Source of the DNA: Dasypus novemcinctus
Lineage: Eukaryota > Chordata > Mammalia > Cingulata > Dasypodidae
Assembly (NCBI RefSeq): GCF_030445035.2
Contig: NC_080698.1
Coordinates: 24,769,294-24,833,293, forward strand
Direction: 5' to 3'
DNA length: 64,000 nt
A model generated the notes under the pieces. That model searched no databases, was not told the DNA's origin, and worked only from the letters and a program-made list of their open reading frames with translations. Below are positions 341 to 56,417 of the stretch, one piece after another. How positions within the stretch are numbered: the stretch's first letter is position 1; every line of letters begins with the position of its first letter. A program made the position numbers and the translations under genes.

Positions 341-1746
341 CCGATTCAGACTCTGAAAGGAAAGTTCATAATCTCTTATTTTTTTTCTTAAAAGTTGAAG
401 TGGTAGCAGATGGAGACTCTCACATTTACAACCATCTAATCATAATTGATCCAGCGAGAGTCTCACTGGAGAGGGGAGAGCATTTTCCCAGGCAATCTTT
501 GGTGTGTCCCCTGGTAAAGAATTACCATGCCATCTGGAAGAGGGCATGATAGAAGTTGTGAAGCTCACAGAAGTTGTGAAGCTCATTACCAACCATATTC
601 TAACTTAGATTGGCATGAACCATGGAATGACCACATCATTTTCTGTATTCCCATGACCCAAGCCATTTAGTTCTCTCTCTGCAACAAAATTTTGACCTAA
701 TTAAACTAATTCTATTTTCTACTTCGTGCTTACAGTTTAAAAGGCCCTGACAAATATAGAAACTCAATTGCATTATGTTGTTTCTCACAACAAAGCTATG
801 AGATAGAAATGGAGAGGACATTATTATATACATTTTCTCAAAGAATAAGCTGAATTTCAGAGAGGCTAAGTGACTTGTCCAAGCCCTATACTTCAAATCC
901 AGTGACATCCTCCACATAATACCTATCTGAGCTAGGCATAAATAATGAGCCTGTATATTTTTAGACTGGGAGAAGAGGTATATCTGGGCTGAAAAGGACT
1001 CATTTGTGTGTACACATGCAAAAGAGGACGAATATCAAGGAATTTCTGATCATTCAAGCCCCCAGAATCCTCTGATTCAATTATTAGTTCATTGCTCATG
1101 TTGTGTTTCACTTTGGATGAGATTCATTAAAGCAATATTGTCATCCTTGCTTTGGTGGCCCATATACTCCATTTGGAACAATACAGAGATTACCATGGCC
1201 TCTGCCAAAGATCACATGCAAATTTGTGAAGTGTTCTATATTTTTAATAACAGTATATGGGACTCCTGTATTTTTACAGAAGTTTTTTCTGTAACCCACA
1301 ACTTCTCTAATCAAAACAAAACAATATTATCCCCAAGCTGAACTCTGTTTTGTGCTAAGTATGTATTTAACCTCTTAGCCTCTACCGTGAATCCTGCAGA
1401 TCTCCAGCTGGGGGTCCTCTGATATCCAAAGAGGGAGATAATCAGAAAGGCTATATCTGTTTTAAGACTTGTCTACCATCATAATTCTCAAAAGACTTGA
1501 TTTCAACATTTCTTTGGCAAACCATTAATAAATAAAGTTTTCAGGTCATCATTCTCCACAGTGCTATAAAAAGAAAATTAAAAGCAAGATCAATTGTGCT
1601 TTGTAAAAACACTGAAAAAATCCTGCATTTTTTATGACAACCAGAAACCAAAAATGTTCTTTTCTAAAGATAATTCCCATTTCTGCTCCTTGGGTCATAG
1701 AAGCAATATGAATCAATAGCAAGAGACCCAGATTCAGATATTCCAA
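341..1746. other. Flank downstream of the gene
   Basis: No gene seen. About 740-910 reads like a diverged MIR on the minus strand (mammalian-wide SINE core 'aagtgacttgtccaag'). The rest shows no recognisable structure. Confidence 0.5.
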
Positions 1747-3014: not shown

Positions 3015-3391
3015 ATTATTTTTTTTTTTAAGATTTATTTTATTTATTTAATTTCCCCCCCTCCCCTGGTTGTCTGTTCTCGGTGTCTATTTGCTGCGTC
3101 TTGTTTCTTTATCCACTTCTGTTGTCGTCAGCAGCACGGGAAGTGTGGGCGGCGCCATTCCTGGGCAGGCTGCACTTTCTTTCACGCTGGGTGGCTCTCC
3201 TTACAGGGCGCACTCCTTGCGTGTGGGGCTCCCCTACGCGGGGGACACCCCTGCGTGGCACAGCACTCCTTGCGCGCATCAGCACTGCGCATGGGCCAGC
3301 TCCACACGGGTCAAGGAGGCCCGGGGTTTGAACCGCGGACCTCCCATATGGTAGACGGACGCCCTAACCACTGGGCCAAAGTCCGTTTCCC
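3015..3391 (-). mobile_element. DAS-type tRNA-derived SINE
   Basis: Head at right, T-rich tail at left; flanked by a tacaattatt target duplication (3005-3014, 3392-3401). The head carries pol III A-box and B-box-like sequence (ggtttgaacc on plus). Overlapping open frames here are repeat translations. Confidence 0.9.
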
Positions 3392-3639
3392 TACAATTAT
3401 TTTTAAATTTTACATAATTAAGTAAAAGATCCTGCCAAATGTTTTTCAAAATATTTTGGCCCCAAAGAGTGTGAAGTTAAATCTGCCCGCCCTTCATGGA
3501 AACAATAATGAAGTAAGAGTAGTATGCAACAGAAAAGAAAAAGGATAAATAGGGGCTGAATTATAGTAGGAGTTCAACCAATTGTTTATTAAGTGACTTA
3601 AATGTAATTAATAAATTGAAAAAATTACAACAGTAATAG

Positions 3640-10164: not shown

Positions 10165-10436
10165 AAGATGAGGGGGAGCAAGACAGCGTCAGAGTAAGAG
10201 CACCCAAATCATCGCTCCTGAGTGGGGACAAAATCGTGCCTGAGTGAGCTGTTTGGGGAACCCACAAAGCAGGAGGCTGCTGGATATAGATCCAGAGAGA
10301 GAGCGGCAAAAAGAGTGAGAGCTCACTGTAAAACTGCCGGTGGCGGCTTTCCCCAACCTCGCAGGTCACACAGCAACCAGAGGAGAAAATCTCCCAGAGT
10401 GGGAGGGTACTGGTTAAGGGTGGAGAGGGGTCCTAC
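10165..10436 (+). mobile_element. Older L1, 5' part, split from its body by the provirus
   Basis: G-rich sequence with no provirus similarity that continues across the CTAC duplication into 18128 onward. Its 5' UTR is unlike that of the young L1, so it is another subfamily. Confidence 0.65.
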
Positions 10437-10939
10437 TGTTGTGGAATTTAAGAGAAGTTCAATTATTTGAATATAGAGAGGCTAGGACTCAGGAATGATT
10501 TTGAGAAGGAAAAATGGTTTATTGACGGCTGGCCGGACTCGGGAGCTTTCAGGTTGAATCTCGAGCCCTGAACAAGATTTTTAAACGTCTTTTATACAGA
10601 GAGGAAAGGCTAAATGGTCTTTTTGTTTCAGTTCTCAATAGGCTTTAATTAGCATGTATCTCTTTTACATTTTAGGTAAGCTTTTAGCAAGGACTCTAGA
10701 CATTTTAGATAAGCTTTGGTTTTTGCATTTCTCTTAAATACTTAAAGTTTATAGCTTTTGCTTTGTTAAACAATTTCTGGGACTGGAGCTTGCTGTCACT
10801 ATTTTTAAGGGCAGGACTGCAGCCTCTTACTGTTTTACACTCACAAGTTAAACAACTTAGTTATTTTTGAAGAGACACAAGTCAAACAGCTTAGTTATTT
10901 TTGAAGAGACAAAGAGCCTTCCACCTATAGCCCACATCA
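10437..10939 (-). repeat. 3' LTR (edited copy)
   Basis: Aligns without gaps to the other LTR with 23 differences, of which 20 are T here against C there on plus (G->A in viral sense). Examples: 10803-10805 ttt against 17991-17993 ccc; 10756-10757 tt against 17944-17945 cc. TATA (10589-10596) and AATAAA (10518-10523, minus) survive. Confidence 0.93.
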
Positions 10940-10952
10940 TTTTTTTTTTTTT
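10940..10952 (-). promoter_or_regulatory. Polypurine tract position, now 13 adenines
   Basis: In viral sense a run of 13 A directly abuts the 3' LTR where the polypurine tract should be. G-to-A editing would turn an A/G tract into such a run. That origin is inferred. Confidence 0.55.
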
Positions 10953-12710
10953 GCCAAAGATTAACTTGCTAAGCTTTGGCATAATTATTGTTGGAGCTAT
11001 GAGGTGGATGGCTGTTTGTTGTCTTGACTGATTATTTATCAGTCTTTAGTACAGCATCTAGGACTGTTTTTAGAGGTTTAGAGCTTTTTATTCTGGACAG
11101 CAGAATCTTGGGCAGGGGCCTCTCGCAGTTATTCTGCTGCCACTGGCACTCACGTGGATTTTTAGTTAGGTTTTAGATCTATCTATTACTTTTATTTTAC
11201 TCTTAAAGAGTTTACACTTTTAATTTAAAAGGGGTGCTGAAGGGAGACGATCTCTTTTTTGTAACTGCTTTTTGCTGGCCATGGGCTGTAGTCATTGCTT
11301 AATAAGGTGTAAAACTTTTAATTTATTTTAACTGGAGGAAGATGGATTTGGCATTCTGTACGAAGTTGGATGAAGTTTTTATATGGTTAATAAGATGTTT
11401 ACTTTGAAAGAAACAAACTTAATTAAAATTTTGGAATACTTGTTTTTAAAAGAGGACACATTGGATTACAGAGGTAGACAAGGTTAGGTGCTTATAAAGA
11501 TGGCATTCTTTAAAAGCTGGTGGGAACAGCATATATATTTTTTTTTAAGTTATCTATCTTTAGAGAGACATTGCAACAGACACTTAGCTTTGTCTGAAGA
11601 CACATTTTAAGCTGTTCAATGATTGACACTCATTTGCTCTGTTAGATGCTCTTGGTGAACTGGCACTCTTTGGGCAACTGGCTTCACTCAGGATTAGAAC
11701 ACTAATTTGGAAATACTCTTAGTTTTTACTTGTGGGAGTGATCAGAACTACAGAATAAAGATTTTTACACTTTGGTTTTCATCGTACAATTTTTAGCAAT
11801 TTTGACTTGTTTAATAGGTGACTCACTATCAGCAAGCAAGCTTCACTTTTGCTAACACAGCAGAGTACAGCAGAATATAGAAGTTGACTGAGACTGGCTG
11901 AGACTGCTACTTTATTTTATAGACATGTTATTAACTGTTTAGAAAATGATTTTACTAGGAATTTAACATGTCTAATATACTTCTGCACTTGATTTAAAAT
12001 AGAAAAGATAACATTACAATTATTAGGCATATATTTAGTACAGGATAAAAGTACAGCACTTAATATTAACTAATGTATTACTTAATGCATAAGGATTCAG
12101 AGTTGCCATTATTAGTTTTGAGTTTCAGGTTTGTAATATTTTACATGTTATCTCTCTATGAGAGCAGGCTATAATGCTAATTGTGTTTAAGTTTTACTTA
12201 CAGTCTCCTGGTATCATGGCTCTACTTAGCATGTTTTTCAACGCAGTGAGCAAGTTGCAGCATTTTTCTAGTATTCTAGAGATTTTTTAGTATTTTACTA
12301 GTTTGGTGCATAGTGCTCTCTGGCACCATGGAACAGTGCCAGTCTGGAGGCGATATCTATTGTACACTTGGCTGTACTGAGTCATTATTGGCTGCAGGAG
12401 CTTGAAACTGCAATATAGTTTTTATCGACTTCAGGAGCAGAACTAGAGACTGATATAGCACATATTTTTAATTGAGGGGTCAGTGACCAGCTTAGCTAAT
12501 AACTTACATGGAGAGGCCACCTGTAATGTATACAAGGCCTGGTTCGAATGCACAAGAGTTTGACAATGTTAAAGTTTATTTTTTGTTTTATATATATTTT
12601 AAACAACTTAACGCAATACATATATTAAATGACTATTTACTTACACAATTTTACTATGAAGATAACAGTAGGTACTTTACTTTAGTAATAGAGGAAAAAT
12701 ATTATTTTTC

Positions 12711-13088
12711 TTTTTTTTTTTTTTTTAAAAGATTTATTTATTTATTTAATTTCCCCCCCTCCCCCGGTTGTCTGTTCTTGGTGTCTATTTGCTGCGTCTT
12801 GTTTCTTTGTCCGCTTCTGTTGTCGTCAGCGGCATGGGAAGTGTGGGCGGCACCATTCCTGGGCAGGCTGCTCTTTCTTTTCATGCTGGGCGGCTCTCCT
12901 CACGGGCGCACTCCTTGCTCGTGGGGCTCCCCCACGCGGGGGACACCCCTGCGTGGCACGGCACTCCTTGCACGCATCAGCACTGCGCATGGCCAGCTCC
13001 ACACGGGTCAGGGAGGCCCGGGGTTTGAACCGCGGACCTCCCATGTGGTAGACGGACGCCCTAACCACTGGGCCAAAGTCCGTTTCCC
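12711..13088 (-). mobile_element. DAS-type SINE inside the provirus
   Basis: Head at right; flanks ttatttttc (12702-12710) and ttattttttc (13089-13098) form an imperfect target duplication. Rich in CC and TC, unlike the provirus around it, so it arrived after the editing. Confidence 0.9.
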
Positions 13089-13642
13089 TTATTTTTTCAT
13101 TGTTAGAATGAAAACAGAATATTTTTAATAGAATCAAGACAACTTTTTATTACCATTTACTTAAATGTGTATTTTGCAGTGGCTTTCAGACAGGTTTATT
13201 ATTATGAAGTTATTTCTGCTACTAATACTAATCTAAGTTTTTTTAGTTAACAATGACTTTTACAACTAGAACTATTTAAACATTTTCAGTTTGGAAGATG
13301 TTTTACAAACTCTTTATAATTGACTATAACTACATTGACTAGCCACTTCATGTTTAAATAAACTTACTAAATTACAATTACTAATGAAAGAAATTTACTC
13401 TTTATTTAAGAGAGCATATTTACATTTTTTTTAGCTTAATTTCACTAATGTGAACTTACAATTTTCATTACTGTAAAGATTTTGTACATATGTTAATTTA
13501 GTTTATAAATTAACTATGGGAGATTACACTCAAGTTAAATAAAATTGAAACTATAATAGTTTATGCAAGGAATGTTCTCTTTTTTTTTTACAGGAAGCTA
13601 AAAACTTCTTTTTTTTAAGTTATGAAAATTATTAAATTAAAA

Positions 13643-13732
13643 GCATACTGACTACCAGGTTTTAAAACACATGCACACTGACTACTAGGTTTTAAAACAC
13701 ATGCATACTGACTACTAGGTTTTAAAACACAT
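13643..13732 (+). repeat. 30-bp tandem repeat, three copies
   Basis: Units at 13643, 13673 and 13703 share 'ctgactac[c/t]aggttttaaaacacat'. It sits in the edited provirus interior. The only cc (first unit) is ct in the other two, the same C-to-T direction. Confidence 0.85.
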
Positions 13733-13846
13733 TACACAATTACTTAATTTTTTAAAATTATAACTCAGGAAAGATCTCTCTATAGTTTTTATGGACTTTC
13801 TTTTACTTAGTGAAATTTGTTAATAGAGCTACTAATTACTTTATTT

Positions 13847-14305
13847 TGTTGGAAAGAAATCTTCTGGAAGAAAATAAGGCTCACTAGATTGTGGAGAAGA
13901 AAATAATTTATTTTCAATCTTGCAAGAAGGGGTGCAGAGCTAGATATGGCTGGTGCCTTGAACAAAGAAAAATGACACAATTTATACTTTTAAGCTTAGC
14001 ATGCAAGCTCTTCCTCTGTTTTTCTATAGATTGGATACTTTAGAAGTTACAGCTTATCTGAGATTTAACTTTCTCACGCAAAAGTTTGATTTAACTGCTT
14101 CTTCTATCACATTCTAACTATTTTAGTTTTTACTTGCTCCCCTTTTTTTCAAATAAGGAATAGAATTTAGTGCTGAAATGGCACCGACTTAGTTAGCTCT
14201 TTTTTGGGCATCTTTTTACTGCCCATAGGACTGGCTTAATCTGGTTTCTTCTACTGCGGTCCAACCCGGGAGTGGGAGACTGAGGCAGCAGGCCGCCGGG
14301 TTACA
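13847..14305 (-). mobile_element. Solo-LTR-like insertion inside the provirus
   Basis: About 459 bp, TG...CA in minus sense, with an internal AATAAA and C-rich composition foreign to the edited provirus. No clear target duplication, so borders are approximate. Confidence 0.55.
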
Positions 14306-17300
14306 TTAACATTTTCTTTATGTGAAAATTAACGTAATTTTTGGGTTTTTTTTTTTTTTCAATTTATGGCTGACAAAGGTTTAAACTGGGAAATTACCAG
14401 GCAAACTGATTTTTAATTCCCTAGCTTAGTAGATAGGTTTAATCTGCCACACCTAGTTTTGCTTTAAAAGCTCTTGCAAAGAGGAGGCTTTTTTTTAATT
14501 GTTTCTATAATCAGATTTTTATGACTTTTTCATCTTGCTTAGTTTAATTTGGGCTTTAAGAATATTTATAAATATAACTGCATATTTAATTTTTAACAAC
14601 TTGAATAGACTTTTTTTAAGAATTTTTATTTGTTAATTTGATATTATCTTGATGTATGAAGACATACATTGAGCTTTTTTTTAAAAATGGGCAGACACAA
14701 AGAGTTAGACACAAACACAACTCATTGATATTACTTGTAATTTGCATTATTTTATATACTGTTTAACTTAATTAATTAGGGGTCTAGAAATACATATTAC
14801 TTATATAACTGCATATTTAACTTTAACAATTTGAGCAAATAGGCAGACATGAATAGTTTGACACAACAACATGACTTTAGTTACTTTAAACTTTTCAAAG
14901 ACTTTTGAAACTCTTCTTAATTTGCACTATGACTATGCAGTTTACTACAAGAATTTTTTTTCTTACTTAATGGATTGTAATAACTAAAATGTTTTCAATG
15001 CCTTAGCACCATTTTGTTTTAGAACTTTATATTTTACTTTGAAATTAGCAGAATTTTGGATAAGCTACAAGATTAACTTTATATATATTTACTGAGGCTA
15101 TTTGAAGCCTCAGGGAGACAGACTGCTTTTTCTCATGAATTGCTACTCTTAGGAACACTGACTGTTAAGGCAGGAGACTTTTTCCCTTCTACCCTTCTTT
15201 TTGATTTTGGAGATAATAAAACTCTAGTGGCTATTTAACTTTATTTTATCAGGCAGCAATTTATTTAGTTTACACTTGAATTCATGAGAGAAAGGGTTAC
15301 TAATACTAGAAGAGGAGACAGTGATGTCTCAGCTCTTCTCAATTATGAAATAACTACAGGCAAAGGCAAAGGGCGAGGTTAGGCCTGAAGCAACTATAAA
15401 CAAAGGAAAGGTTAGTGTAGAATTTACACTTAAATAATAGTTTCAGGCTAAATTTACTCAGCTATAATCTCAGTTATTGTCTTTCTACTATTTTACAATA
15501 TAAATGCATTTATAAATGATTTTAACTCTTAGTTACAGTTTTTATTAATTTTTTAAAACTTATTAATTTTATAACACTTTTAAATACTTTTCATTTAACT
15601 TATAACATATTAAATGAACTTAACTATTACTTTAATTTTTTTTTTAAAGTGAAAGAATAAATCTCTTGCAGTTAGTTTGAAATAAAAGGCTACTTTTCAG
15701 GATTTGATTTCTAGAACATAAAATGTTCTTTTAAAAGAGGTAAGACTCTTTTTCAAACATTGAGGATATGATGAGGTTAAAGCACAAGAAGCTATTGATA
15801 AATGATTTTCTTTATATATTGATCTTACTCAATTTAATCATAAAAATTTCTCTTTTACAAACTTTTTACACTTTCAGTATTCATTCAGGTTCTGTCTCAC
15901 ACTCTACTCTTTTTAATAATCAATCATTTTATTTTAGGACAAAATCATCTTTTGTTTTTTTAACAATAAAAACACACTCTATATATCTCACATACTAAGT
16001 TACTAGGCAAACTTCTTACAACATATAATTGCCATTAATACTAAACAAGTTTGTTAAAATAATGAACTTTTCTTCACTTTAAATACTTAGTAGCATGTAA
16101 TACTAGAAACAGTTTTTTTGGAAGTAAGTTGGCAGGGGAGATTGGCTGCCAAATAAGTTTGTTATAAAATTGCTTTTTATTATTATTATTATTAATTCAG
16201 TTTTGTTAAATAATGACTTTCTGCAATTAGCTACTTAAATACTTTAAACAATGCTTTGTAAAACTTTTATATTTATACTTTTAAGACAGATTTTACTTTC
16301 ACAGAACATTTTCTTACTTAAGGTTACTACAATACTTTCTAAGAACTTGAGCAGAATGCAAACGTATTTTGGCTTTGACACCCTAAGGAGGGAAATTTAC
16401 TGCATTTATTTTGACTCTGCTTTTTACTTCTTTTAATTCCCCCCCTTTTCAGGCAGTCGGGTGCACAACAAACAGGAATGCGGCTTATGAATAGAAGGGT
16501 GGACTCACTGGAAAGGGGCAAGCCGCTCCCCGATTTCTAGCTTTTAGCCAAAATGGGCAGACAGAACTTACTCAAATTTGGCAACTCTCTCAGGAACCCA
16601 GCCGCCCCGACTGGGACATTCTTAACAAACTTGGGTGCTTGGCGCGGACACAGATGGCTTCTAAGCCCCGGCAAAGGGCCAGACCAGAGACAAGACAGCA
16701 GAGCATGCACAAACATCTAGACTCTTCAGCTTTTGCCCTAGAATCATTTTACCCCCTTGCCAATGGCAAGGGAGGGCTCCAGCTCAGCTGTGATTTTACT
16801 TTATGTAAGGACACAACTCTAACACTAACATTGAGCTGACACAGACAGAAGCACAAAGGTCACTAATCTGACTTACAAGTTTATATATTTATTTTCACCA
16901 CGGCTGCTCTCACAGCTATCACAAACTTCAGAACACTTAACATTTGGTATAAAGCAAATTCATTTATAAATTAGCACTATAACAAAAGATTTCAGCTAGA
17001 CTTTTTTACTGTTTAAACTTTACACCCAGACTAAGCTCCACTAGAAAAGCCGATTTATTTTTCTGTAACTAAGTTTTGTTTTCTTTAATCTAGACCAATT
17101 TCCAGGACATTAGCACTCGAACTTATAAATACTTTTTTTATTAAAATCGAGACTCCACTCCTTTAGTGGATATAAGACCAGTACCAGATTTTAACATGCA
17201 GTTAGACAAACTCAAAACACCAGGGCTTTTCTCCGGTTTTCCTCTTTTTCTCAAGCCTAGAGAGAACGGCTTCTTCCCAGCCTTCTGGGGCTACTAGGGT

Positions 17301-17602
17301 TCTCTCGGGAGGTGATCAGCCTCCCCTTCTTAGCAATTAAAGCTAGGGCTTTCTAGACTCTGCTCACCCGGGGAGTCTTACCTTCTTCCATGTTCGGAGT
17401 TTTTTTTCGTTCTTAGAATCTTTTTTTTCAGACTTTCTATTGCCCCTCGATTTTGTCGGGAAGATTCTGGTGGAGCCCACATCTTTTCTGGATTAAATTT
17501 AATCCAGGGGCGCCCAGATTTGGGGTTCACCCGAGTCTTCCCGGCTTCCTCGGGGATTTGGAAGGGGCAGCAAAATGCTACTGTCTCTGGCTTTCATTTA
17601 TT

Positions 17603-17620
17603 GTCCCTTCGTGGTCGCCA
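17603..17620 (-). promoter_or_regulatory. Primer binding site, tRNA-Arg type
   Basis: Four bases after the 5' LTR (viral sense) lies an 18-mer starting TGGCGACCACG. On plus it is gtcccttcgtggtcgcca, which as I remember it equals the 3' end of tRNA-Arg(UCG) plus CCA. The TGG start and its distance from the LTR are typical. Primer identity rests on memory. Confidence 0.8.
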
Positions 17621-17705
17621 TTAATGTTGTGGAATTTAAGAGAAGTTCAATTATTTGAGTATAGAGAGGCTAGGACTCAGGAATGATTTTGAGAATGAAA
17701 AATGG

Positions 17706-17711
17706 TTTATT
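17706..17711 (-). terminator. LTR polyadenylation signal
   Basis: AATAAA in viral sense downstream of the TATA box; counterpart at 10518-10523. Confidence 0.8.
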
Positions 17712-17776
17712 GACGGCCGGCCGGACTCGGGAGCTTTCAGGTTGAATCCCGAGCCCTGAACAAGATTTTCAAACGT

Positions 17777-17784
17777 CTTTTATA
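17777..17784 (-). promoter_or_regulatory. LTR TATA box
   Basis: TATAAAAG in viral sense, about 70 bases upstream of the AATAAA in the same LTR, the usual gamma-like U3/R layout. The same box is kept at 10589-10596 in the other LTR. Confidence 0.8.
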
Positions 17785-18031
17785 CAGAGAGGAAAGGCCA
17801 AATGGTCCTTTTGTTTCAGTTCTCAATAGGCTTCAATTAGCATGTATCTCTTCTACATCTTAGGTAAGCTTTTAGCAAGGACTCTAGACATTCTAGGTAA
17901 GCTTTGGTTTTTGCATTTCTCTTAAATACTTAAAGTTTATAGCCCTTGCTTTGTTAAACAATTCCTGGGACTGGAGCTTGCTGTCACTATCCCTAAGGGC
18001 AGGACTGCAGCCTCTTACTGTTCCACACCCA

Positions 18032-18102
18032 CAAGTCAAACAACTTAGTTATTTTTGAAGAGACACAAGTCAAACAGCTTAGTTATTTTTGAAGAGACAA
18101 AG
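18032..18102 (-). repeat. Tandem duplication in U3 (about 35 bp x 2)
   Basis: Two copies of a unit containing 'acttagttatttttgaagag', separated by 'acacaagtcaaac'. The same pair is in the other LTR at about 10844-10914. Position near the U3 start matches enhancer repeats of gammaretroviruses; the function is inferred. Confidence 0.75.
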
Positions 18103-19584
18103 AGCCTTCCACCCATAGCCCACATCACTACGAGTGCAGGTTCAACTGTCTGGACTCCCCTTTTTGAGCTTTGAGGAGCATACCAGCTAGCTTGAGGAGA
18201 AACCAGGAAAAGGGGAGAGGCAAATCTGCTGAGACAGCCCGATTTACCTAACCTCTCTGGGTTACATCTGGGAGAAGGTGCAGCCAGGCAATTAACTAAT
18301 CCTGTGCAGCACACCTAAGGAAGGCAGACAGAAGGAAGTGCTTGGTAGGCTTCCAAGAGCATATTTAGGGTTCCAGCAAGGTCTGGGTGCTCTCTCTCAA
18401 AGAGCCTGAGAGACGTTATTCTCTGTGGTGATTTGGTTCTCCAGGATCCCATTTGAATTTCAGAGGGGAGCTTGCACGTGGGCTTCCTGCTGCCCTGGGA
18501 AAGAGGGAAGGGAGAAAGGGAGAAAGGGGGAAGAGCAGATTCCTAATCAGTTCATTCAATAGTAGAGTCTATCCTGCCCCTGGAAGGGGACTTTTTTTGA
18601 GGAGCAGGTTGACCCTGAAGGAAGGTTTGGCTGGGTTTCAGCCTTGAATGTGCAACTGGTTCAGTTCCTGGCTCCTTTTAGAGCAGTGATCCACTGGGAT
18701 ATTAGCTGATACTCTGAGACAAGGAAAACATAGATAATATCCTTGTATTAGCTTCCCTTGGGTCTTTTATTTTCCCTAACTAAGAGCTTAAGAGGGCAGT
18801 CTGGTTTTTTTATTGTTTGGTTGACTCCTTGCTTGAGGGCTTGTGTTTGTTTTTTTTTCTTCATATCTTGTCTTTCCTTCCTCTTTATCCCCCAGCCCTT
18901 TTTTTTCTTTCTTTCCTTCTTTCTTTCTTTTTTTTCCCCTTTTCTCAGTTAGGTGCTGCCAGCTTGGTTATTGTTTGCTGTGTTTCCTCATCCTCAACCT
19001 CCTCTTTTCTGTGTGTACTGATTTTGGCTACCAAAGCTATCTCTTTTCCTTCCTACATCTTTCTACATTCCGTCTTCTGTTGTTGCTCCCTCTCTTTGTT
19101 TAGCCCCCAATTTTTCTGGCTTTTTGTTTCTCACACTTCTATTCTGTTTTCTATCTTTTATTAACTCTTTATCTTGTTGTCCTTTCTTTTCTCTTTCCCT
19201 CTCTCCTGATCATGCTAGCCTTTTTAAATTCATACTATATTCTTCTCCATATCCAATTTCCCATTTCATTTTAGGTACTCCACTTTCTTATTCCTATAAT
19301 TACACACTGTTTACATTTACTACCACTACTACTACTATTATACTTTGTCTTTTCTTACTTCTTTTGCTTTCCCTGGCCTTAATCTTTTTCATTCAAGGTA
19401 ACTTAGACAACTACAAGGTAATAGAATAAGAAGAAAGTGTCAAAAAGAAAAATTAACACACACACAAAACCAGCACCTAAAAAACCACTGTGACTAGAGG
19501 GAGAAGCTAATCAAGAACAAACCCACAAAGATAAAATGATGACCAGACAGCAACAAAAAAGTAAAATCAAACCAATAATCAGGA

Positions 19585-37600: not shown

Positions 37601-37814
37601 GTTCTTCTTCATTCTCAGTCAAGCCTCAGATACCCAAGATTTTAAACATGCAAAATTTATGGAGCTCCTGGAAAGCAGTAGGAAGTTGTAAGCCTCTCCA
37701 TTCTCCACTGTTATTGTTTGACCATTCCAATTATGATAAATTAGAATGTAATAGAATTATTGTCATAATCACGATCCTCTCAGATAATATAAAAATCTGG
37801 GACTCTGTACTTAC

Positions 37815-38047
37815 CATGGCTAACGCAGTGCGAGCATGAAATCTGTCACAGTCCACGGCTTCCACGGTAAGGTTATATTGTTTCACAGACTCATAGTCTG
37901 GTTGTGTCATGAGTTCAATCATTCCAGAGAGAGGATGAATCCAGAATCTTTGTATAACCTGGATGTCTCCACTGGCTATTTTGTAAGTCACACAGTTTGG
38001 TGGGTAGTCTTCATCAATGGCAGTGACTCTTCCAACTTTGTAAAAAG
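37815..38047 (-). CDS. CDHR3-like cadherin exon: most of one EC repeat
   Basis: 233-nt exon with acceptor tgttattggcag and a strong donor CATG|GTAAGT; incoming 2 bases, outgoing phase 0. Encoded landmarks in order: FYKVGRVTAIDEDYPPN (the xVTAxDxD calcium motif), VTYKIASGD, RFWIHPLSGMIELMTQPDYE (PDYE in place of LDRE), and KQYNLTVEAVDCDRF, ending at ALAM. The layout and the Cys near the end match the CDHR3 repeat that contains VFWINPKTGELQL. Confidence 0.92.
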
Positions 38048-38289
38048 CTGCCAATAACATTTTATAAGGTCATTCTTGTCAAGCAGACACACAACTCTAA
38101 AAAGCTTAATATGTCTTTGCCTTCCAAATAGTTTGATACTTTCTCAAACCATCAAACTGAACCCTTTTGGACAATGAAATGTGTTTGGAGACCCCAACGC
38201 CACATGATGGAAAATGGATTAAAATACACTTTACTTTAAACACATGGCATGAACCCTTTTTTTTTAAAGCAGGCAATATGCTAAGATTA

Positions 38290-49976: not shown

Positions 49977-50340
49977 GGACTTCCGGCAAGATGGTGGCTG
50001 AGTGAGCTTGCCTTGCCGTCTCTCCTGGGAAGAGGCAGCTGGGCACCGCTGGAGGTTCTCCGGGACCAGGCTTTTTCAGGATTTTTTCAGGGCAGGAAGT
50101 GTCTGGACATCGATTTGGTGGGAAGGTAACGGAAAGGACTGGTCTATAAGATATAATTTGGGACTTTTCAGGAGGGGGAGGCAAGATGGCGGCTGAGTGA
50201 ACTTCCCGGTTACTAGCTCCTGGGGGGAATCGGCTGGGAGGCGTCGGAGACTCTTTGGGACCGGCTGTTTCAGGATTTTTCCTGGTCTGGAGGTGTCTGG
50301 ACATCGATTTGGAGGGAAGGTAACAGAGAGGATCCATCTG
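49977..50340 (+). repeat. Two tandem L1 5' monomers
   Basis: Units beginning near 49980 and 50170 share 'caagatggyggctgagtga', 'ttcaggatttttyc' and 'gtgtctggacatcgatttgg'. Tandem monomers serve as promoters in some L1 families. Confidence 0.8.
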
Positions 50341-50389
50341 TGAAATATACACGGAGATCCCAGCTACGTGTGGAGGACTCCCTCCTTGG

Positions 50390-50760
50390 GTAGGCGGAGC
50401 CGAGGCAGCTAGCACCGCGGCGGGTGGCGGGCGGGAGAGCCGAGCCGCGCTGTGCCGCGGCAGGCGGCAGGCGAAGGAGACAAGCCCAGCCGAGCCTAGC
50501 CTAGCCGTGCCGCGGCGGGCGGCGGGCGGGAGAGCCGAGCCGTGCTGCGCCGCGGCGGCGGGCGGTGGGCGGGGAAGCCAAGTCCGGCCGAGTCCGGCCG
50601 AGCCCAGCTGAGCCGCAGCGGGCGGGGGGGCCAAGCCCAGCCACGCCGCGCCGGGCGGCGGGCGGGAAAGCCGAGCTCAGCCGAGCCCAGCCGAGCCGCA
50701 GCGGGCGGCGGGCGGGGGACCGGAGCCCAGCTGAGCCCAGCCGAGCCTGGCGGCGGGGTT
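50390..50760 (+). promoter_or_regulatory. CpG-rich tandem repeat in L1 5' UTR
   Basis: Repeated 'gccgcggcgggcggcgggcgg' and 'gagccgagcc' phrases make a local CpG island, the likely L1 promoter region. The 245-codon minus frame here is a by-product of the GC content. Confidence 0.75.
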
Positions 50761-51546
50761 TCTGTTCTTTGTTTTTTTTATTTTTTTTATTTTTTTTTTA
50801 TTTTTTATTTTTTGTTGTGGTTGTTGTTCTTGTTGTTCTTTTTTTTTTTTTTCAATCCTCTCTTTCTTGTCCCCAATATTCTTCTTATACTATTTTACCT
50901 TAACAATACAATAGGTCCTACAGGAAATACCTCACATTTGCTGGGTTTCCTCACCCTCCACTGCCTCATTTCTCTGTGAATAGATTTAGCCTATCTACAC
51001 TATCCCCTTTCCCCTACAACTTGATAGCCTCCACCATCTGCTATCTCTCCTATATTCCATCTCCCTTTCTTTGATCCACAAAGTGTCTAACTCTTAATTT
51101 CTAATACCTTTGTTTAGTTTTCCATCTGGTATTCGTCCCTGAAACTATTACCTTTCTTTTCTCTTTCCCTCTCTCATGAAAACAATAGCCTCTTAGTACG
51201 TACCACATTCCTCCCATATTCAGTCGTCTACCTCATTATAGGTACTTTCCTACTACTATAACTCTACACAATTTACATGATCTAACCTCCATCCTCCCAG
51301 AACTCATATTGTTGCTTTGTAAACATATATCACCAATACTACTTCACACTTTTTCCTTCCTTACACAATTGACTTTCCCCAGCACTAATACTTTCCTTTA
51401 AAGTGAGCTTAACTAGCAATAAGAAATTGGAATAAGAAGAACAAAGTGACAAAGAGAAGATATAACACTTACGCAAAAACAACAGCTAATTAATCTCCAA
51501 GACTAGACAAAGAAGCTAAGGAATTGATTAAACCTGTCAAGAAAAA

Positions 51547-52518
51547 ATGTTGACAAGACAGCAACAAAAATCTACAAACCAAACCAGTAATCAGGAAAAC
51601 ATGGCTGAATCCAATCAACAAACTGAAAATCAGGAAGGGGGGCAGGACTTCGCACAAGCAATGAAAGATCTCAGAACATTTATCACCGACAAATTTGATG
51701 AAGTAATGAAAGAGGTTAACAGCGTGAAGACAACACTTGGAGGGGAAATTGCAGACATGCGCAAAAAAATAACAGATATGATGGAAATGAACACCACAAT
51801 TCAAGAAATCAAAAATACACTTGCAGCAAATATCAGCAGACTAGAAGAGGCAGAGCAGAGAATTAGTGATGTGGAAGACAGTGCATTGGAAATCAAACAG
51901 ATAGTAGAAGTGGTCAATAAAAAGGTAGAAAAAATCCAGATAGGACTTAGGGACCTGAATGATAACGCAAAACGCTCAAACATACGTATTATAGGCATTC
52001 CAGAAGGAGAAGAGAAGGGAAAGGGGTCAGAAGGAGTGTTGCAGGAAATAATGAATGAAAACTTCCCAAATCTACTGAAAGAGACAGATGTACATATCCA
52101 AGAAGCACAGCGCACTCCACTGGTCATAAACCCCAACAGGCCCACCCCAAGACATATACTTGTCAAATTATCCAATGCTCAAGACAAAGAAAAAATTCTA
52201 AAAACAGCAAGAGAAAAGAAAACCATCACATACAAGGGAAACTCCATAAGATTAAGTGCTGATTTCTCATCTGAAACGATGGAGGCAAGAAGGCAGTGGT
52301 ATGATATAGTCAAGGTACTAAAGGAAAAAAATCTCCAACCAAGAATACTCTATCCAGCTAAACTAGCATTCAAAAATGATGGAGAGTTCAAAATATTCAC
52401 AGATAAACAGAAACTGAAAGAGTATATCAACAAGAAACCTCCCCTTCAAGAAATTCTTAAGGGAATTCTGCAGGAAGAAAGGAAAAAACAGGACAGTCAG
52501 AGATGGAGGAGAGTGTAA
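51547..52518 (+). CDS. L1 ORF1p, intact (323 aa)
   Basis: RNA-binding chaperone of L1. Residues 1-50 are polar; about 50-150 form a coiled coil ([20 protein letters not shown]); the RRM starts near [19 protein letters not shown]. The C-terminal domain holds [18 protein letters not shown] and [19 protein letters not shown]. Length is close to the 338 aa of human ORF1p. Uninterrupted from ATG to stop, so it could still make protein. ORF2 starts 80 bases downstream. Confidence 0.95.
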
Positions 52519-52598
52519 AAGCAACAAGAAAGACAAAAATAGAAGGGGAAAATAAAATAATACAAACAAAATATAACAAACACAAATCCAACCAAAAT

Positions 52599-55500
52599 AT
52601 GGCTACCATAAATAACTCTCTAAACGTAATAACACTGAATGTCAACGGATTAAACTCACCTATCAAAAGATTCAGACTGGGACACTGGATAAGGAAATAC
52701 GACCCATCTATATGCTGCCTACAAGAGACACATCTTAGACCCAGAGACTCATGGAGGTTGAAAGTGAATGGCTGGAAAACAATCATACAAGCAAACAACA
52801 ACCAAAAAAAGGCAGGAGTAGCTATATTAATATCAGACAAAATAGACTTTAAATGCGAAACAATTGTGAGAGACAGAGAAGGATACTATATTTTAGTGAA
52901 AGGGACAATTTGTCAAGAAGATCGAACAATCATAAATATTTATGCTCCTAACAAGGGCGCCTCTAAATATGTGAGGCAAACGCTGGAAAAACTAAGTGAA
53001 AGAATAGATGCATCTACAATTATAGTGGGGGATTTTAATACACCACTATCAACTCTGGACAGAACATCTCAAAAGAGAATCACTAAAGAAACAAAACATT
53101 TGAACAGTATATTAGAAGAGCTGGATCTAATAGACATATATAGATCATTACACCCAAACACAGCAGGATATACATTTTTCTCAAGCGCACATGGAACATT
53201 CTCCAAGATTGACCATATGCTAGGCCACAAAGAAAGGCTTAATGAATTCAGAAAGATCGAAATCATACAAAACAATATCTCTGACCACAGTGGAGTCAAG
53301 CTGGAAATTTGCAAGGGACAGAGACCCAGACTTCACACGACAATTTGGAAATTAAACAGCACACTCTTAGAAAAACAGTGGGTCAAAGAGGAAATCTCAA
53401 AAGAAATCAATGACTACCTTGAAACAAATGATAATGATAACACAACATACCAAAATTTATGGGATGCAGCAAAAGCGGTACTGAGAGGGAAATTTATAGC
53501 CATAAATTCATATATCAAAAAAGAAGAAAGAGCAGAAATTGAAGAATTAACTGCACATTTGAAGGAATTAGAAAAACAACAACAAAGTAACCCAACAGGA
53601 AGAAGAAGGAAGGAAATAACAAAGATAAGAGCAGAACTAAATGAAATAGAAAATAAGAAAGCACTTGAAAAAATAAACAAGACCAAGAGCTGGTTTTTTG
53701 AGAAGATCAACAAAATTGACAAACCTTTAGCGAGACTAACAAAGAAAAAAAGAGAAAAGATGCAAATACACAAAATAAGAAATGAGAAAGGTGATATCAC
53801 CACTGACCCCACAGAAATAAAGACTATCATAAGAGGATACTTTGAAAAACTATATTCCAACAAAAATGACAATTTAGAGGAAATGGACAAATTCCTAGAA
53901 ATACATAAGCAGCCCATACTGACGAAAGAAGAAATTGATGATCTTAACAAACCAATCACAAGCAAAGAGATAGAATCAGTCATTAAAAATCTCCCAACTA
54001 AGAAGAGCCCAGGGCCAGACGGCTTCACAGGTGAATTCTACAAAACATTCCGGAAAGAACTAACACCAATCCTGTTGAAACTATTCCAAAAAATCGAAAC
54101 AGAAGGAACACTGCCTAATTCCTTCTATGATGCCAACATTACCCTAGTACCAAAGCCAAACAAAGACACCACAAGAAAGGAAAATTACAGACCAATTTCT
54201 CTAATGAACCTAGACGCAAAAATACTTAACAAAATACTTGCTAATCGTATTCAACAACACATTAAATGAATTATACACCATGACCAAGTGGGATTTATCC
54301 CAGGTATGCAAGGATGGTTCAACATAAGAAAATCAATCAATGTAATACACCATATAAACAGATTGAGAGAAAAAAACCACATGATTATATCTATAGATGC
54401 AGAAAAGGCATTTGACAAAATACAGCACCCCTTCCTGATAAAAACACTCCAAAAGATCGGAATACAAGGAAACTTTTTGAACATGATAAAGAGTATATAT
54501 GAAAAACCTAAAGCCAACATTGTTTACAATGGCGAAGTCCTGAAATCCTTCCCTCTAAAATCAGGAACAAGACAAGGATGCCCATTGTCTCCGCTCCTAT
54601 TTAACATTGTCTTGGAAGTACTGGCTCGAGCACTGAGACAAGAACCAGATATAAAAGGCATTCAAATTGGAAGGGAAGAAGTCAAAATTTCATTATTTGC
54701 AGATGACATGATCCTATATATAGAAAACCCTGAGAGATCTTCAACAAAGCTCCTAGAACTCATAAATGAGTTTAGCAAAGTCGCAGGTTATAAGATCAAT
54801 GCGCAAAAATCAGTAGCATTTCTATACACCAATAATGAGCAAGATCAGGAGGAAATCAAGAAACAAATACCATTCACAATAGTAAATAAAAAAATCAAAT
54901 ACTTAGGAATAAATTTAACTAAAGAGGTAAAAAACTTATACATCGAGAACTATACAAGATTGTTCAAGGAAATCAAAGAAGACCTAAATAAATGGAAGAA
55001 TATTCCCTGTTCATGGATAGGAAGACTGAATATTATTAAGATGTCTATCCTACCAAAACTGATCTACACATTCAATGCAATCCCAATAAAAATCAACACA
55101 GCCTTCTTTAAGGAACTAGAAAAACTAACTATGAAATTTATTTGGAATAAAAAGAGGCCCCGAATAGCCAAAGACATATTGAAAAAGAAAAACGAAATAG
55201 GAGGAATCACACTTCCTGACTTCAAAACATACTACAAAGCTACAGTAGTGAAAACAGCATGGTACTGGCATAAGGAGAGACACACAGACCAATGGAATCG
55301 AATTGAAAGTTCAGATATAGAACCTCATGTATATAGCCATATAATATTCGATAAAGCCACCAAACCCTCTCAACTGGGAGAGAATGGCCTATTCAACAAA
55401 TGGTGCCTGGAGAACTGGATAGCCATATGTAGAAGAATGAAAGAGGATTACCATCTCACACCTTATACAAAGATCAACTCTAGATGGATCAAAGACCTAA

Positions 55501-56417
55501 ATATAAGAGCCAAGACCATAAAGACCTTAGAAAGCAGTGTAGGGAAACATCTACAGGACCTTGTAATAGGAAATGGCTTCATGAATATCACACCAAAAGC
55601 ACGAGCAGCAAAAGAACAAATAGATAAATGGGACTACCTCAAAATTAAAGCCTTCTGCACCTCAAAGGAGTTTGTCAAGAAAGTAAAAAGGGAACCCACA
55701 CAATGGGAGAAAATATTTGGCAACCATATATCTGATAAGAGACTTATAACTTGCATATATAAAGAACTCATATATCTCGAAAACAAAAAGATAAACAACC
55801 CATTTAAAAAATGGGAAAAAGATTTAAACAGACACTTCTCCAAAGAAGAAATACAAATGGCTAAAAAGCACATGAAAAAATGCTCCAAATCCCTAGCTAT
55901 CAGGGAAATGCAAATCAAAACTACAATGAGATACCATCTTACTCCCATAAGATTGGCAGCCATGAAAAAAACAGTAGAATACAAATGCTGGAGAGGATGT
56001 GAAGAAAGGGGAACACTCATCCATTGCTGGTGGGAATGCAGAAGGATCCAACCATTCTGGAGGACAGTTTGGCAGTTTCTCAAAAAATTATCCATAGATT
56101 TGCCATATGACCCAGCAATACCACTGCTGGGTATATACCCATCAGATCTGAAAACAAGGACACAAACCGATATATGTACACCAATGTTCATAGCAGCATT
56201 GTTCACCATCGCCAAAAGTTGGAATCAATCCAAAAGTCCATCAACAGATGAGTGGATCAATAAAATGTGGTATATACACACAATGGAATACTACTCAGCT
56301 GTAAGAACCAATACACTACAATCGCACGTGATAACATGGATGAACCTTGAGAATCTTATGTTAAGTGAAGCAACCCAGGCATTGAAGGACAAATACTATA
56401 TGACCTCAATGATATGA
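52599..56417 (+). pseudogene. L1 ORF2p with a single in-frame stop
   Basis: Endonuclease plus reverse transcriptase. The likely start is ATG at 52599 ([20 protein letters not shown]), which puts catalytic Asn14 and Glu43 (CLQETH) at the same numbers as in human ORF2p. RT carries FADD at 54696-54707. The Cys-rich end reads [18 protein letters not shown], i.e. CX3CX7HX4C. The frame spans 1272 codons against 1275 residues in human. One TGA at 54267-54269, after NRIQQHIK, splits it into 556 and 715 codons; no frameshift was seen. The left product would keep the endonuclease but lack the RT core. Confidence 0.93.
54267..54269 (+). other. Nonsense codon TGA in L1 ORF2
   Basis: The two open parts are in the same frame on either side. 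A CGA-to-TGA CpG transition is one likely origin; that is inferred. Confidence 0.9.

Follow-up and report, generated by a model that had tools for sequence, protein, structure and literature searches.

A long terminal repeat (LTR) element in the genome of Dasypus novemcinctus was very probably edited by its host while it was being made. It occupies 10437-18127 (7,691 bp, minus strand) of a 64,000-nucleotide stretch of contig NC_080698.1 (positions 24,769,294 to 24,833,293, forward strand), which we call the window. We propose that a host APOBEC3-type enzyme deaminated the minus-strand DNA of this 7.7-kb retrovirus-like insertion at CC and TC in the course of the reverse transcription from which it arose.

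The provirus and its parts

The provirus is in minus-strand orientation, so that the viral 5' LTR is on the right and the viral 3' LTR on the left. Its parts, with the log odds ratios (ln OR) explained further below, are as follows.

10433..10436, no strand: target-site duplication CTAC, left, directly outside the LTR
10437..10939, minus: viral 3' LTR, which has 20 G-to-A changes, all at GG/GA sites (LTR alignment)
10940..10952, minus: purine tract adjoining the 3' LTR, 13 A and zero G; by its inferred role possibly an altered polypurine tract
10940..17250, minus: core interior, with strand-specific G loss before purines (ln OR -1.43, excluding the short interspersed element, SINE) and without recognisable gag, pol or env
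12705..13091, minus: tRNA-type SINE, 93% identical to the copy at 3016-3392
17251..17624, minus: leader following the primer site, with little editing (ln OR -0.24) and none seen in its first ~250 bp
17603..17620, minus: primer binding site, 4 bases inside the 5' LTR (sequence inspection)
17625..18127, minus: viral 5' LTR, the less edited copy, with TG...CA ends and TATA and AATAAA motifs
18128..18131, no strand: target-site duplication CTAC, right, directly outside the LTR

Both LTRs are 503 bp long, start with TG, end with CA and carry the TATA and AATAAA motifs, and integration duplicated 4 bp, CTAC, which stands on both sides of the element. The primer binding site is presumably complementary to the 3' end of tRNA-Arg(CCG). 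With its paired LTRs, TG...CA ends, target-site duplication and primer site, the element is an endogenous retrovirus or LTR retroelement. The provirus also contains a 30-bp unit in three tandem copies at 13632-13732.

Twenty one-way changes in one LTR

The two LTRs (10437-10939 and 17625-18127) align without gaps and differ at 23 of 503 positions; the pairing given by BLAST was 3 bases longer (506 bp), with one extra difference, outside the LTR. At 20 sites a viral G in the 5' LTR is an A in the 3' LTR, while the reverse is seen at none (sign test p=1.9e-6), and the other three comprise two C/T and one A/C, giving a strand bias of 20 G-to-A versus 2 C-to-T. With the 5' LTR as reference, which may itself carry shared edits, the changed sites sorted by next base are GG 11/23, GA 9/29, GC 0/22 and GT 0/26, or 20/52 for G before a purine (GR) versus 0/48 for G before a pyrimidine (GY; Fisher p=2.7e-7). 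Only one of the 20 edits falls at a CpG, and with CpG sites removed the counts are 19/48 versus 0/46 (p=4.4e-7). Some edits are consecutive (GGG to AAA once, GG to AA twice), and GAG is weakly avoided (0/7, p=0.035, uncorrected).

An earlier sequence-only reading of the window had described gap-free 503-bp LTRs with 23 differences, 20 of them in one direction, each altered plus-strand C following a C (11) or a T (9). Our realignment gave the same counts, and the hypermutation test that it proposed separated GG/GA from GC/GT contexts as above. The same reading held that the changes are unlike ordinary CpG-favouring decay, which is borne out by their position, all in one LTR and hardly ever at CpG, and we rejected CpG decay as their source. 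Its suggestion that the mix of GG and GA is a sign of more than one enzyme found no support: the preference for GG over GA is not significant (p=0.26), so that one enzyme with a pyrimidine-C preference suffices and two are not required.

Both U3 copies of a provirus derive from the single U3 of its RNA, and its 5' LTR is built from plus-strand strong-stop DNA, for which the minus-strand 3' LTR is the template. An altered RNA base, or an error of minus-strand synthesis, would therefore reach both LTRs, which places changes found in the 3' LTR only after strong-stop copying; RNA-level editing was rejected for this reason, as its changes would be shared. The pattern points to deamination of the minus-strand 3' LTR when it was exposed again after strong-stop copying, and the context, strand and direction of the changes support APOBEC3-type deamination of minus-strand cDNA.

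The interior carries the same scar

For the interior we took every A and G and looked for a shortage of G at sites followed by a purine relative to sites followed by a pyrimidine, expressing the answer as the natural logarithm of the odds ratio (ln OR); an exchange between A and G is unable to alter the purine/pyrimidine class of the next-base context. In the core interior without the SINE, G makes up 17.3% before purines versus 46.6% before pyrimidines, which is the ln OR of -1.43 listed above. Over the whole interior without the SINE the value is -1.30 (Fisher p about 1e-63), with +0.16 on the opposite strand. In the flanks, 89 overlapping 6.3-kb windows scored on both strands (178 values) gave a mean of 0.02, a standard deviation of 0.14 and a minimum of -0.20, and at like window size the editing scar thus ends before the flanking host DNA. 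Assuming that the two rates were once equal, ~63% of the GR sites in the core were edited, or ~89 per kb, a figure estimated from composition and not a count of mismatches.

The estimated edited fraction (kernel) rises away from the primer site, as exposure of the minus strand predicts: it is about 0 at 17.5-17.65 kb, 0.26 at 17350, then 0.39, then 0.53 at 17.05 kb, and deeper in the interior it lies between 0.39 and 0.88, peaking at 0.88 next to the SINE gap and reaching 0.84 around 14.8 kb. Some G-runs survive within edited stretches (7 G at 16439-16445 and 4 G at 14139-14142, minus sense) while the tract at 10940-10952 is free of G, a difference that local protection, e.g. by an RNA-DNA hybrid, could explain. 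Both runs resemble polypurine tracts; we do not claim a central tract, the profile showing no drop just downstream of 16439-16445.

The SINE within the provirus serves as an internal control. It is flanked by near-identical short repeats of the form TTATTTTT(T)C (TTATTTTTC and TTATTTTTTC on its two sides), and there is an Rfam tRNA match overlapping its nearest copy, at 3016-3392. The SINE is probably of the armadillo DAS type, which would suggest a xenarthran host. DAS-SINEs have been described from Dasypus novemcinctus (PMC3183009). Relative to the nearest copy, the provirus SINE has changed to A at 1/62 GR and 2/52 GY sites, and the reverse comparison gives 4/66 GR and 1/50 GY. The SINE is thus unedited with respect to that copy, and so it likely arrived after the editing. 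Altogether, the claim of the earlier reading that editing took place during the infection or retrotransposition that created the provirus is supported, since the interior carries the same scar as the LTR and negative controls are available both inside and outside the provirus.

Proposed course of events and age

The events could have run as follows. An RNA with a likely noncoding interior would have been packaged in helper particles together with the deaminase, and its minus strand would have been edited while single-stranded, least near the primer site. Plus-strand strong-stop DNA would then have copied U3-R-U5 and transferred, fixing the state of the 5' LTR, after which the minus-strand 3' LTR, displaced and single-stranded again, would have gained the 20 further edits. 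Integration with duplication of CTAC would have followed, and the SINE would have inserted later.

One LTR would thus likely be a snapshot of the element as it was when strong-stop DNA was copied, the other of the finished reverse transcript. The pair would amount to a natural time-stamped experiment, in which a site-by-site comparison reveals the editing after the strong-stop step with no need for a reference genome. At the same time, editing can inflate LTR dating about eightfold (23 versus 3 differences): the 3 non-edit differences date integration to about 1.4 million years (My) ago (0.3-4.0 My), while all 23, uncorrected, give 10.4 My. Both ages use a mammalian substitution rate of 2.2e-9 per site per year.

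A likely noncoding element

The interior contains 49 stop-to-stop pieces of at least 30 amino acids, 5 of which overlap the SINE. None of the 40 pieces searched separately against Pfam, out of the 44 that are not SINE, gave a retroviral match (gag, pol, env); the best Pfam match, Nairovirus_NSm (E 0.0043, 17.5 bits versus a cut-off of 27.4), we read as chance. Heavy editing could hide genes, and we also used the 3-base periodicity of purines, a signal that G-to-A changes cannot alter. This periodicity is absent from the interior, at most 1.0 in 8/8 windows versus at least 2.3 in 6/6 windows of L1 open reading frames (ORFs). The interior is likely noncoding, and the element is therefore probably non-autonomous and was likely moved by a helper. 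A pattern scan of IMG/VR found no relatives.

Evidence against, and other explanations

Several observations weigh against the account given above. The edit load of the interior is estimated from composition and may include edits from earlier generations; moreover, the edit profile has unexplained dips near 15.85, 14.2 and 12.25 kb. Some depletion is present in the 5' LTR as well (ln OR -0.66, and -1.11 in its U3 half), for which shared early edits, inheritance or base composition may be the cause. Outside the provirus, a 250-bp tile of the right flank (18128-18377) scores -1.01, and 500-bp flank windows go down to -1.41 in a GC-rich repeat at 50300-50999, on both strands, and short windows alone therefore prove little. 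When the majority base of six other SINE copies from the window is taken as reference, the provirus SINE has A at 8/63 GR and 2/47 GY sites; its sister copy outside the provirus gives equal counts (8/63 GR, 2/48 GY), so that we read these sites as subfamily differences. Unequal LTRs would likewise result if strong-stop DNA had been transferred between two molecules, one edited and the other not. With regard to coding content, the periodicity test misses older L1 copies (at most 1.4 in 4/4 windows) and reaches 6.7 in 1/19 noncoding flank windows, and an overlapping scan of the interior gave 3.5 at 15740-16339 and 3.1 at 15140-15739, where a short coding remnant (15140-16339) is possible. Lastly, the searches for a host APOBEC3 described next belong among these points.

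Among the other explanations, the one that survives best, although we consider it unlikely, is that APOBEC3 was not involved and another deaminase, for instance an APOBEC1 preferring YC, made the edits. A 2012 survey (Munk and others; PMC3495650) reported no APOBEC3 in Xenarthra and left both loss and poor coverage possible as reasons. Our two protein searches likewise named no xenarthran homologue, neither among the matches to an APOBEC3A query (120 of 131 listed) nor among the 44 matches to an APOBEC3H query. Both searches were shallow, however, and the second named no carnivore either; moreover, it is usually APOBEC3 that edits retroviral cDNA in other mammals. Among the paper titles listed on APOBEC3 with Xenarthra, or with armadillo since 2012, none names a xenarthran APOBEC3, and a later report may exist. 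AID, which prefers purine-C hotspots, was rejected, as none of the 48 purine-C sites on the minus strand changed.

It is decidedly improbable that the edits are older and were once common to both LTRs, the 5' LTR and the leader having since been cleaned by gene conversion from an unedited relative. The cleanest stretch (U5 and early leader, about 17.4-17.88 kb) does adjoin the less edited 5' LTR, but the U3 half of that LTR is still depleted, the leader grades into the edited core with no sharp end, and the LTR pattern is equally expected from a second single-stranded phase, with no further event needed. Even less probable are polymerase errors under an imbalance of deoxynucleoside triphosphates, an older hypothesis that likewise yields G-to-A on the viral plus strand: errors of minus-strand synthesis would pass via strong-stop DNA to both LTRs, while the 20 changes are in one only, and errors of the final plus-strand fill-in escape this argument, yet no GC/GT site changed. 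Ordinary post-insertion decay (including that of methylated CpG) or recombination between different proviruses has practically no chance of being correct, for although an LTR divergence of 4.6% is usually taken as age, the changes are one-way, GR-only and almost never at CpG, their restriction to one LTR contradicts both processes, the inner SINE is unedited and the like-size flank windows unbiased, and identical CTAC flanks both LTRs.

There is a wider claim, for which we see about as much reason to believe as to doubt: that within the last few My an active xenarthran antiretroviral DNA deaminase, specific for CC/TC, massively edited a noncoding retroelement whose LTRs record the states before and after the strong-stop step. 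The provirus predicts a functional deaminase in Xenarthra, the group in which the gene survey found no APOBEC3 (PMC3495650).

Other features of the window

An open piece of 112 amino acids at 37731-38069 (minus strand) resembles cadherin repeats, with CELSR1 as best solved match (E 1.8e-28), which suggests an exon or a retrocopy remnant of a cadherin gene; a related-locus scan with this piece found no relatives. At 51532-56417 (plus strand) lies a nearly intact L1, with a 328-amino-acid ORF1-like frame followed by abutting frames at 52461-54269 and 54270-56417, which share a reading frame and are separated by one stop. The latter frame matches L1 ORF2 proteins, at best with 76% identity and with 58-71% for named mammals among the 120 of 1340 matches listed. 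No close named relative appears among these, which would fit a poorly sampled placental lineage as host but does not prove it. A U6 small nuclear RNA copy at 1147-1245 (plus strand) scores above the Rfam gathering score.

Comparison with known systems

The closest parallels are mouse proviruses described in a 2025 paper, which reports G-to-A changes restricted to the 3' LTR in Mtv (mouse mammary tumour virus, MMTV) and murine leukaemia virus (MLV) proviruses, ascribes them to a second single-stranded phase and states that such LTR differences were previously unreported for other retroviruses (PMC12548423). According to that paper, the LTRs of Mtv17, Mtv21, Mtv61 and Mtv62 differ at 13, 16, 2 and 9 positions, all but one of which are G-to-A in the 3' LTR, and those of Mpmv5 (an MLV) at four; consecutive G-to-A changes are named as an APOBEC3 hallmark (PMC12548423). 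The armadillo provirus resembles the mouse Mtvs and Mpmv5 in having G-to-A changes, some of them consecutive, that only the 3' LTR carries, and a hypermutated interior, and it shares clean flanks with Mtv21 among the mouse proviruses (PMC12548423). The four mouse Mtvs also carry edits common to both LTRs (PMC12548423). LTRs of more than 1,300 bp, as in the mouse Mtvs, were suggested to favour the pattern (PMC12548423), whereas here 20 edits fall within 503 bp, which weakens the explanation by large LTRs. Further differences from mouse MMTV and MLV are the likely noncoding nature of the element and its xenarthran host.

Edited endogenous MLVs (Pmv and Mpmv) similarly show G-to-A in excess of C-to-T and a gradient rising from 5' to 3', clear in Pmv; their best context is TTC, and they were scored against a subgroup consensus, whereas we used the 5' LTR and composition (PMC2041998). 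Gammaretroviral endogenous retroviruses (ERVs) of rhesus and chimpanzee likewise have GG and GA signatures, with 5'-to-3' gradients in some proviruses; there, capsid and envelope regions were compared with a consensus, in a report whose main text does not use the term LTR (PMC2564838). As for edit density, the ~89 per kb estimated for the core compares with values of 120.8 (Mtv21) and 71.5 (a zebra finch ERV) in Table 3 of PMC12548423, which quotes the catalogue of ultra-edited ERVs by Knisbacher and Levanon (2016). The armadillo provirus thus belongs to a recently described kind, and its xenarthran host is what could make it matter: it carries the mouse MMTV/MLV pattern, called new in 2025 (PMC12548423), over to a second placental lineage, which is likely basal, and to an LTR that is short.

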